Assembly: GCF_003259505.1 (NCBI RefSeq)
Contig: NZ_QLLK01000012.1
Location: 1-64,000 of the forward strand
Source of the DNA: Algoriphagus yeomjeoni
GTDB taxonomy: Bacteria; Bacteroidota; Bacteroidia; Cytophagales; Cyclobacteriaceae
DNA length: 64,000 bases
Reading direction: 5' to 3'
Shown here: positions 28,215 through 29,861 of the stretch, in pieces
Layout of the letters: each line of letters begins with the position of its first letter
Position numbering within the stretch: the stretch's first letter is position 1
The notes under the pieces: generated by a model
Told to the model about the DNA's origin: nothing
Seen by the model: the letters and a program-made list of their open reading frames with translations, nothing else
Database searches by the model: none
Translations under genes and position numbers: made by a program

Positions 28215-28258
28215 TTTACTCAATCTAATGAGTAAATTTACTCAGTACATTGAGTAAA
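28215..28258. repeat. Two tandem 22-bp palindromes, TTTACTCA-N6-TGAGTAAA
   Basis: Copies at 28215-28236 (spacer ATCTAA) and 28237-28258 (spacer GTACAT) are directly adjacent. The 8-bp arms are identical and perfectly complementary; only the six central bases differ. A third copy lies at 29701-29722 on the other side of the ATPase gene. Confidence 0.85.
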
Positions 28259-28315
28259 ATTCTAAAAACAGCCAAATTGTATTGAATATCAAATACTTAT
28301 AGGATAATTTTTAAG
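28237..28315. repeat. Left copy of a 79-bp direct repeat flanking the ATPase gene
   Basis: Aligned without gaps to 29701-29779, 57 of 79 positions are identical by my hand count (20 of 22 in the palindrome, shared AATATC at positions 49-54, shared CTTAT and TAAG further on). Both copies are in the same orientation. This left copy lies downstream of the ATPase gene, next to the sbcC end. Confidence 0.6.
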
Positions 28316-28410
28316 GATAAATATTCCATATTAGAGCTTAAAATAATGAAGGAAAGCTCTGCATTTCATACTTAAGAGCAAACTATTATATGTGTTTTAC
28401 TAAAAATCAG

Positions 28411-28450
28411 CAGTCTCTGCAAAACCTTCGTGAACTCAGCGGTGAAAAAC
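28411..28450. repeat. Intergenic repeat relic
   Basis: CTCTGCAAAACCTTCGTGAA followed by CTCAGCGGTGAAAAAC has the look of the dispersed CTCTGCG...GCGGTGAA repeats of Bacteroidota chromosomes. The 28207-28477 gap otherwise holds only the palindromes and the terminator at 28454. Confidence 0.4.
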
Positions 28451-28453
28451 TAA

Positions 28454-28479
28454 AAAAGACAGCCAATTAGCTGTCTTTT
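28454..28479 (-). terminator. Terminator of the AAA ATPase gene
   Basis: AAAAGACAGC and GCTGTCTTTT form a 10-bp stem with a 6-base loop; on the reverse strand a T run follows. The stem overlaps the first bases of the stop codon of the gene it ends. Confidence 0.75.
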
Positions 28480-29674
28480 AAGTGTATAAATCTAGCACAT
28501 TCATCTGCAAGAACTCCTCCCACGGAATACCATCTGTACCGATGACCAGGGATTTTTCGGGATGATAGGTGTTGGTGAAAGCATTCATCCCTGCCAGTCC
28601 TCCGACTTTTGCAGTCTTTACTTCCAAGGCAATGATTCGCTTTTTATATTCTACTATGAAATCCACCTCATCATTTCCATCTCGCCAATAATAGATTTGC
28701 AGCTTTCGCTCCTTGAAGGATTGATTCACCAGATGCGCACCCACGGCAGATTCCACCCATCGACCCCAGGCCCGATGGTCAGCTTGTAATGTATCTACAG
28801 TTTCGTTGGAAATTCCTGACATGATGGCGGTATTATGAACCATGAACTTGGGACTTGAGGATCGCTTCCGCACTAAGTTTGGGCTATATTTCTCCAGCCC
28901 ACTTAGCAATCCTGCTTCATTCAGAAGTTCCAGATAATTGGAGAGTGTGGTGGTATTACCAGCATCTGCCAGCTGCCCCATGATTTTGGTGAAACTTAGC
29001 ACCTGACCTGAATAGGATGAGCCTATCTCAAATAGGCGCTTCATCAGTGCTGGTTTGTCCACTCGCGTCAACATCAGAATATCCTTCGAAATACTGGTCT
29101 CTAAGAGTGCATCACGGACATAATTCTTCCAGCGGTCTTCATCCTCCTTCAGCAGAATAGCGCCAGGGTAGCCGCCATACCAGATGAATTCTTCAGGAGA
29201 AAGCCCGAAAGCCTCTTTCATTTCCTTGTAAGACCAATGTCCCAGGTAGGTGGACTCAAACCTACCAGCCAATGATTCAGTCAGACCCTGCTGTAGCATT
29301 AAGCGCGATGAACCAAGCAGCACAACTCTAATATCACGCTCCTCGGCGGTATCTCTATCCCATTCGGCTTTGACTTGCTCGCTCCAGTTATCGATTTTCT
29401 GTACTTCATCGATAACCAAAATATAAGGGACTTCGGTAGCAGAGCTTTGCTTCATCCGTGCATTTTCCCATTGCTGGGCTATCCAAAGCCTATCTGTAGC
29501 CGGCACCGCATCAGCCGCCACCAGCGTATGTGGCCAATTGATATCTTTCATGATTTGACGAACGAGGGTGGTTTTTCCTACCTGCCTAGGGCCATATATC
29601 ACCTGAATGAACAACCGAGGCTCATCATGAAGACGTTTTTGAATTTGGATTTTTTCTGATCGCTGATAACTCAT
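28478..29674 (-). CDS. AAA ATPase with C-terminal DUF4143 / PD-(D/E)XK nuclease-like domain
   Basis: A 398-residue ATPase of the AAA_14-DUF4143 type. Walker A is VIYGPRQVGKTTLVRQI near residues 26-36, Walker B YILVIDEVQKIDNW near 83-96, and a sensor/arginine segment VVLLGSSRLMLQQGL follows. A winged-helix-like middle leads to DUF4143, whose end has EVDFIVEY (Asp338) and LEVKTAK (Glu351, Lys353), the D-x12-ExK arrangement of PD-(D/E)XK nucleases. The cellular role of this widespread family is unknown; nuclease activity is inferred only from the motif. The ATG at 29674 is 22 bp from a palindrome that recurs twice beyond the gene's 3' end. It is divergent from no partner and has its own terminator: an isolated cassette. 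Confidence 0.85.
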   Translation of the reverse strand: MSYQRSEKIQIQKRLHDEPRLFIQVIYGPRQVGKTTLVRQIMKDINWPHTLVAADAVPATDRLWIAQQWENARMKQSSATEVPYILVIDEVQKIDNWSEQVKAEWDRDTAEERDIRVVLLGSSRLMLQQGLTESLAGRFESTYLGHWSYKEMKEAFGLSPEEFIWYGGYPGAILLKEDEDRWKNYVRDALLETSISKDILMLTRVDKPALMKRLFEIGSSYSGQVLSFTKIMGQLADAGNTTTLSNYLELLNEAGLLSGLEKYSPNLVRKRSSSPKFMVHNTAIMSGISNETVDTLQADHRAWGRWVESAVGAHLVNQSFKERKLQIYYWRDGNDEVDFIVEYKKRIIALEVKTAKVGGLAGMNAFTNTYHPEKSLVIGTDGIPWEEFLQMNVLDLYT

Positions 29675-29696
29675 TTTCTTTACTTTTTATCCAGCG

Positions 29697-29726
29697 TAAA
29701 TTTACTCATTATATTGAGTAAATTTA
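29697..29726. repeat. Palindrome upstream of the ATPase gene (third copy)
   Basis: The core TTTACTCA-N6-TGAGTAAA is at 29701-29722 (spacer TTATAT). It extends to a 30-bp imperfect palindrome with TAAA at 29697-29700 and TTTA at 29723-29726. It lies over the expected promoter or leader of the ATPase gene, so it may be an operator. Confidence 0.8.
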
Positions 29727-29779
29727 TAAAATACCACCTATTTATTTTAATATCAGACTCTTATGATATAATTATTAAG
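29701..29779. repeat. Right copy of the 79-bp direct repeat
   Basis: Same orientation as 28237-28315, about 72 percent identical by hand count. Together the two copies bracket the ATPase gene with a period of 1464 bp. Confidence 0.6.
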
Positions 29780-29861
29780 CCAATTTTCATTCATTTCAGT
29801 CTTAAAAAATGGTAGGGATGAGTAAAAAAATTAAACTTGAACCATAAAATTTTGGTCATAA

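Follow-up and report, generated by a model that had tools for sequence, protein, structure and literature searches.

Palindromic candidate operators accompany an AAA_14-DUF4143 ATPase-nuclease gene in Algoriphagus yeomjeoni and its relatives

We analysed a 64,000-nucleotide stretch of the Algoriphagus yeomjeoni genome (contig NZ_QLLK01000012.1, positions 1 to 64,000; the window), in which three palindromes with identical arms flank a gene for an AAA_14-DUF4143 protein, an AAA ATPase joined to a predicted winged helix-turn-helix (wHTH) and a PD-(D/E)XK nuclease domain. Sequence comparisons indicate that the palindromes are probably the operator of the ATPase gene itself. This reading follows from the start-proximal position of the site, from its co-occurrence with the gene across phyla and from covariation between the recognition helix of the protein and the half-site. 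An earlier note on this DNA had proposed recognition by a dimeric protein, perhaps the ATPase. The same three lines of evidence point to a protein, most likely the ATPase, which would presumably bind as a dimer.

Results

Palindromes and direct repeat in the window

The features discussed below are the following; where no strand is given, none was assigned.

29701..29722: exact palindrome of the candidate operator, 26 bp before the ATG; homologs carry the same upstream site
29679..29700: degenerate unit of the candidate operator, abutting the former and 4 bp before the ATG; at most 2 mismatches in most aligned relatives
28215..28236: downstream palindrome 1, an exact match 8 bp after the sbcC stop
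28237..28258: downstream palindrome 2, an exact match that abuts downstream palindrome 1
29679..29779, plus strand: direct-repeat copy on the gene-start side, two candidate operator units and a conserved tail (repeat alignment, conservation)
28215..28315, plus strand: direct-repeat copy on the gene-end side (repeat alignment, conservation)
29740..29780, minus strand: conserved AT-rich tail in gene sense, upstream copy (alignment of relatives, tail comparison)
28280..28316, minus strand: conserved AT-rich tail in gene sense, downstream copy (alignment of relatives, tail comparison)
28478..29674, minus strand: AAA_14-DUF4143 gene (AAA ATPase, wHTH, PD-(D/E)XK nuclease), an open reading frame (ORF) of 398 aa (Pfam, PADLOC, structure model)
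28949..28951, minus strand: codon 242 (Thr) at the start of the recognition helix, candidate specificity residue (model, half-site covariation)
28481..28798, minus strand: PD-(D/E)XK domain, residues 293-398, with invariant E308, E336, D338, E351 and K353
28454..28479, minus strand: terminator-like hairpin directly 3' of the ATPase stop, before the downstream repeat (1 found against 1.4 in shuffles, weak alone)

The pattern TTTACTCA-N6-TGAGTAAA occurred exactly at 28215-28236, 28237-28258 and 29701-29722, and these three were the only exact matches in the entire 4.97-Mb genome. When up to 3 mismatches were allowed, the window contained 5 matches against 0.64 expected, a number reached by 0 of 100 shuffles. 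The earlier note had described this layout correctly except that the upstream palindrome lies 26 bp, not 22, from the ATG. Next to it is the degenerate unit 29679-29700 (4 arm mismatches), so that a tandem pair of 22-bp units stands on each side of the gene. The six central bases do differ, as had been noticed, but they are not free: of 104 palindromes within one mismatch (relatives included), 64 had an alternating purine-pyrimidine (RYRYRY) centre, where composition predicts 1.5%, and so did 17 of 46 distinct central hexamers. The mostly alternating centre suggests bending or indirect readout over a free spacer.

The units are part of an ungapped direct repeat in the same orientation, with a spacing of 1464 bp. 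This repeat had been put at about 79 bp; it extends over 101 bp with 70% identity (28215-28315 and 29679-29779). A sigma-70 promoter scan gave 4 matches against 5.1 expected from shuffles, that is, no excess. A hairpin similar to that at 28454..28479 follows the ATPase stop in many relatives.

Specificity of the palindrome for the locus

The exact pattern was present at 35 sites in 19 of 72 genomes of the genus, with no match to the reversed-pattern control. Thirty-two of these sites were at the sbcC-estB locus, one of them (G035) at a contig end beside estB. The other three, on other contigs of G002, G008 and G054, are one homologous site within a glycosyltransferase ORF, which we took as coincidence. 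Among 395 Bacteroidota genomes there were 16 exact sites in 11 genomes, and one control site. Ten of the 16 were beside an intact ATPase gene, one beside a truncated one, one at an empty locus and one at the coding site; the remaining three were without a detected ATPase. Rejecting the palindrome as a genome-wide repeat follows from these counts (3, 35 and 16 exact sites in the genome, the genus and the Bacteroidota, respectively).

The three sites without an ATPase detected nearby are the tandem sites of G079 and G437 (L280) and the single site of G164 (L278). The 5' flank of G079 is shared, by eye, with that of G074, which has kept a truncated gene; gene loss is therefore likely in G079. The palindromes of G437 and G164 may be old scars or may serve another use.

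Conservation of the site among homologs

We fetched 61 homologs with 44-93% identity to the window protein. Units with at most 3 mismatches were found within 150 bp of the gene start in 47 of them, often near -50 and -28; start codons were assigned by rule (first ATG before Walker A), and some upstream windows may be misplaced. The hosts include Bacteroidota, a Chlorobium, and one metagenome-assembled genome (MAG) each of Parachlamydiales, Treponema and Spirochaetaceae. The units usually stand in tandem; L031 and L063 have five, and the step from one unit to the next was exactly 22 bp in 62 of 65 neighbouring pairs. Among L028-L065, only the fetched flanks of L057 and L058 contained the genes that lie next to the ATPase in the window, which argues that the palindrome site travels with the ATPase. 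Homologs are also encoded on plasmids (246 records) and in 11 phage records; a scan of IMG/VR with L053 gave no confirmed relative.

In L055, six identical 16-bp repeats at 22-bp steps, separated by 6-bp spacers of the type ATRYRC, precede the homolog (upstream of 1562). The array has variant units at both ends and an iteron-like look.

Covariation of residue 242 with the half-site

A confident structure model of the window protein places the wHTH at residues 208-279, with the recognition helix at 241-253 and the wing at 257-279. We tabulated residue 242, at the start of this helix, against the half-site for the 111 of 119 candidates that could be parsed (unparsed were L060, L062, L065, L233, L243, L244, L262 and L275). 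Thr or Val went with TGAGTAA in 97 rows and Ser or Ala with TGCGTAA in 12; two rows (L038 and L041) had neither half-site. Deduplication left 91 unique proteins: 78 with T/V and TGAGTAA, 11 with S/A and TGCGTAA, and two with T and neither. In a scan of all alignment columns, eight separated the TGAG and TGCG groups. Inside the window protein these were only 242 and residue 1; five others lie before residue 1 and one after 242 at a gap in the window protein. All except 242 reflect start differences or sparse columns.

Close relatives can be compared directly. L050 and L248 (Val, TGAG) share 87-88% identity with L247 and L249 (Ala, TGCG), yet differ from them at residue 242, and both half-sites of each promoter switch together. 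This natural V/A(S) difference, tied to TGAG/TGCG (TGAGTAAA versus TGCGTAAA sites), amounts to a comparison of one residue and one base. When the wHTH was left out of the tree, the TGCG proteins still fell into one group (support 78/97); most promoters of this clade consist of direct half-sites spaced by 22 bp, with no pairing arm. We regard the covariation as good mechanistic evidence, though it represents one evolutionary event and supports binding by the encoded protein only indirectly.

The ATPase-nuclease protein

Both named domains of the window protein matched Pfam above the gathering thresholds: AAA_14 (PF13173) with E 4.4e-22 (78.9 bits; threshold 27) and DUF4143 (PF13635) with E 5.9e-28 (98.1 bits; threshold 28.1). 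The PADLOC profile PDC-S01 (PDLC04791) matched over its full length (E 4.8e-182; residues 1-396, profile 1-393 of 395). A sequence search of the PDB with the window protein returned nothing significant (best E 0.16), and no NCBIfam profile came near any cut-off.

The structure model (predicted local distance difference test, pLDDT, 88.6; predicted template modelling score 0.89) consists of an AAA domain, the wHTH and a C-terminal domain. It has the AAA plus wHTH fold of the archaeal proteins SSO1545 and PABY2304, which were the best structural matches listed: 2fna with Z 17.1 and root-mean-square deviation (rmsd) 3.5, and 2qen with Z 17.0 and rmsd 3.3, both over 262 aligned residues. Many AAA+ proteins, including CED-4/NLR and Orc1/Cdc6, followed at Z 14-15. 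The C-terminal domain, modelled alone (pLDDT 91.7), had PD-(D/E)XK proteins as its best matches listed, first McrBC (6hz4_M, Z 8.5, rmsd 3.0, 102 aligned), followed at Z 6-8 by Can2, VRR_NUC, Hjc and EcoRV; its Foldseek E-values were weak (best 0.0029). These match lists are not exhaustive, and families missing from them may be similar as well. The domain has the alpha-beta-beta-beta-alpha-beta core and the E/D...D...ExK motif of PD-(D/E)XK nucleases. E308, E336, D338, E351 and K353 are invariant across 47 aligned homologs. Asp338, Glu351 and Lys353 had been pointed out before for their nuclease-like spacing; their invariance, together with that of E308, indicates that the nuclease site looks intact.

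Dyads upstream of other DUF4143 genes

For 126 DUF4143 genes, many of them relatives (126 of 131 loci; L061, L062, L172, L181 and L205 were dropped), we scored inverted repeats in the first 120 bp upstream. At p<=0.017, where 60 shuffles set a floor of 0.016, dyads were found for 82 of the 126 genes; for control genes the figure was 18 of 200 and for downstream regions 25 of 124. A non-redundant set of 36 clusters was scored with 300 shuffles (floor 0.0033). At p<=0.01, 22 of 36 DUF4143 genes had an upstream dyad; the corresponding figures were 4 of 36 for downstream regions and 7 of 147 for control genes, the latter drawn solely from other ORFs of the 61 homolog loci. Half-site promoters escape the score, as that of L044 does (p 0.92).

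The dyad sequences are unlike between subfamilies, and within several subfamilies they are conserved across species. The window gene itself has a conserved dyad just before its own start and linked to the gene. The present genome encodes eight DUF4143 proteins, whose upstream repeats or dyads are of unlike sequence by eye; the dyad score was significant for the window gene and four others, and not for L184, L188 and L189. Together, the eight paralogs (five by score, three by eye) suggest modules between which cross-talk must be avoided.

The neighbours of some plasmid-borne homologs were recorded as well. On two Roseobacteraceae plasmids (L293, L303) the ATPase gene is just downstream of a gene annotated ScpB, and on a Rhodoferax plasmid (L292) it has a Fic-family gene on one side and an addiction-module antidote gene on the other.

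The downstream copy

Both ends of the gene have the same element in this genus and in the related genera L014-L027. Read in gene sense, it consists of a conserved AT-rich tail and then one or two units. We take L014-L027 and L058 to belong to the Cyclobacteriaceae. Elsewhere, few distant homologs show downstream palindromes; the downstream copy is clearest in L031, L063 and G344. A crude scan (at most 4 mismatches in 24 bp) found the upstream stretch repeated downstream in 22 of 60 window-family loci versus 3 of 67 wider-family loci. Concerted evolution of the two repeats is weak at best: their similarity was 0.501 within the same genome versus 0.484 between genomes (28 pairs, L019 dropped; permutation p 0.026).

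Two further arrangements are worth recording. G344 (L279, L287, L288), from another family of Bacteroidota, has exact palindromes on both sides of the ATPase gene, the far one about 25 bp after the gene. Contig 14 of G102 (L223, L245) has tandem ATPase copies, one of them truncated, each with an operator of its own. Such tandem copies are a possible stage in the origin of the downstream operator copy.

Gain and loss at the locus

The region downstream of sbcC was examined in 66 genomes and in the window. These 67 regions comprised 15 intact genes, two remnants (G039, G057), three gene-free regions with one palindrome (G008, G038, G053) and 47 with none at up to 2 mismatches, some of the 47 being rearranged or cut by contig ends. 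For the 58 genomes with both estB and the dioxygenase gene, the figures were 15 intact, 2 remnants, 3 scars and 38 empty. All 15 intact copies were at the same sbcC-estB locus, where a mobile cassette would be expected at different sites among close relatives.

The one-repeat junction is clear in G038, good in G008 and weak in G053. The G038 locus consists of the downstream flank, one repeat and the upstream flank of its sister G004 (downstream flank 1-314, 89%; upstream flank 228-401, 84%; overlap 87 bp). In G008, the downstream flank of G020 matched in pieces up to 430 and the upstream flank at 394-633 (81%); the flanks of G002 matched at 362-487 and 392-606. In a tree of the 58 genomes, G038 and G008 were the sisters of the gene-bearing G004 and G020, respectively (Shimodaira-Hasegawa-like approximate likelihood ratio test, SH-aLRT, 91 each). 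The divergence of the ATPase tracked that of the neighbouring genes (r 0.78 and 0.77). Among the 15 loci of related genera, sbcC lay within the fetched downstream flank in 10 and was not seen in L020, L022 and L024-L026. Given the single locus, the tracking of neighbour divergence and the retention of sbcC in related genera, the gene seems to be old here and to have been lost often, sometimes via the repeats.

The earlier note had envisaged a cassette that can be gained, lost or duplicated. The one-repeat junctions of G038 and G008 support the loss: direct repeats can mediate it, and loss is the direction that the comparison suggests. Gain is not supported, given the single locus and the divergence data. 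As to empty sites keeping one repeat, three of the 50 regions without gene or remnant kept a palindrome, with two clear junctions, and 47 had none at this threshold; the scar is thus the exception.

Discussion

In the model that we favour, the palindromes would be the operator of the ATPase gene. A dimer of the ATPase, or a pair of adjacent dimers two turns apart on the same face of the DNA, would bind the units via the wHTH, and the bound ATPase would repress its own transcription. The signal for release would probably be the ATP state or DNA engagement. The operator region may have been copied to the 3' side of the gene in an ancestor of this bacterial family and then retained under selection, possibly because it provides a second anchor for looping. 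As a side effect, the copy would form a direct repeat of about 100 bp that sometimes deletes the gene and leaves one repeat. Defence is our leading guess for the job of the released ATPase-nuclease.

Several observations weigh against this model or narrow it. Fourteen of the 61 homologs lack a site within 150 bp; 12 have none, most of these carrying TGCG or other variants instead, and L037 and L038 have one only farther off. A TTTG (-7-like) box stands within 16 bp of the first palindrome in 17 of 50 upstream copies and in 4 of 29 downstream copies, so the placement of the promoter in the window clade is itself an inference. The TGCG proteins form one group, for which a single switch suffices, and the covariation is to that extent not replicated. 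L041 has T242 but arms TTTATTAG, which means that further residues matter. Simple autoregulation does not explain the downstream copy, whose tails are more alike between species than the upstream ones (0.575 versus 0.506, 28 pairs); the downstream copy is thus not mere debris. Finally, no dyad at p<=0.01 was found in 14 of the 36 subfamilies, and only 1 of 7 non-Bacteroidota plasmid clusters had one. Since the evidence outside Bacteroidota is thin, we confine the general operator claim to Bacteroidota and, beyond them, to close homologs.

Alternatively, the palindromes could be a target or self-address of the nuclease, in the manner of an iteron bound by an initiator, with repression secondary. 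The resemblance of the fold to Orc1/Cdc6 initiators with their winged helix (WH) (2qby_A, Z 14.2, rmsd 6.0, 255 aligned), the iteron-like array of L055, the intact-looking nuclease site and a downstream copy without a gene of its own would all suit such a role. We consider it improbable, as gene-bearing genomes retain the site stably and show no trace of its being cut, and regulation explains the position at the start codon.

We give little credence to a mobile cassette that is bounded by the palindromes and moved by the ATPase-nuclease. Such a cassette would account for direct repeats on both sides of the gene, for gene-free relatives with one repeat, for the upstream stretch repeated in 22 of 60 window-family loci, and for an intact-looking nuclease site in a family found on plasmids and phages. 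The 15 intact copies of the genus are nevertheless at one locus, their divergence follows that of the adjacent genes and two scar genomes have gene-bearing sisters, so loss suffices; moreover, only 3 of 67 wider-family loci have the repeated stretch and few distant homologs have downstream palindromes. Synteny, empty sites and the tree weaken the transposon reading, and we retain it only as a route of loss.

That an unrelated host regulator binds the palindromes, the ATPase gene being merely its target, is likewise a slim prospect. Operators are often bound in trans, and for three of the 16 exact sites in the 395 genomes, all distinct from the coding coincidence, no ATPase was detected in the vicinity. 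Against this, 32 of the 35 genus sites are at the present locus and the other three are one homologous coding site, the site accompanies the gene into other phyla, and its sequence shifts with the recognition helix of that very gene. RNA hairpins in the 5' leader are very improbable, even though the arms would give 8-bp stems with a 6-base loop and the proximal unit is just upstream of the ATG, because most promoters of the TGCGTAA clade lack a pairing arm, the fixed 22-bp step and RYRYRY centre fit helical phasing and bending of DNA, and the downstream copy lies beyond a terminator-like hairpin.

With the palindromes as a predicted operator and residue 242 as a predicted specificity residue, the PDC-S01 family becomes testable, and a route opens to the derepressing signal. 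A broader proposal, which we hold to be doubtful, is that the AAA_14-DUF4143 (PDC-S01) proteins are a large set of self-addressing ATPase-nucleases. Each would recognize a lineage-specific DNA word through a simple one-helix code (T/V reads TGAG, S/A reads TGCG). The words would often form arrays of 22-bp units, and the occupancy of such an array would serve as the sensor. If so, an infection that cleared or competed for the array would cause the protein to be made and the nuclease to be released, and the operator would be both switch and self mark.

Comparison with known systems

The earlier note was right that AAA_14-DUF4143 proteins have no agreed function, but they are already listed as the single-gene phage-defence candidate PDC-S01. 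In the available text of PMC12988326, PDC-S01 is the fourth most common defence system across prokaryotes, and the phage-defence candidates (PDCs) are described as unvalidated. Like the window protein, which matches its profile over the full length, PDC-S01 is an ATPase fused to PD-(D/E)XK; that text mentions neither an operator nor a DNA specificity for it (PMC12988326). The available parts of PMC12988326 and PMC13356809 contain no account of an operator, and our search of the published literature on the family, with subscription papers largely outside it, found no description of these operators in the text accessible to it.

Among proteins of known structure, the archaeal AAA+ ATPases SSO1545 (2fna) and PABY2304 (2qen) have an AAA domain and a wHTH that can be aligned to residues 1-290 of the window protein. 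The identity is 15-16%, and the alignment ends before the nuclease domain. The archaeal Orc1/Cdc6 initiators, which bind inverted repeats near their own gene, share the AAA plus WH arrangement (2qby_A). The window protein differs from them by its fused nuclease domain and by sites at the start codon, and the likeness is one of fold alone.

Restriction-modification control proteins and toxin-antitoxin repressors are autoregulated modules with private operators. The window locus resembles them in the proposed self-repression of a single locus via a palindrome that differs between paralogs. It differs in that regulator, ATPase and nuclease would be combined in one polypeptide, which presumably represses its own gene.

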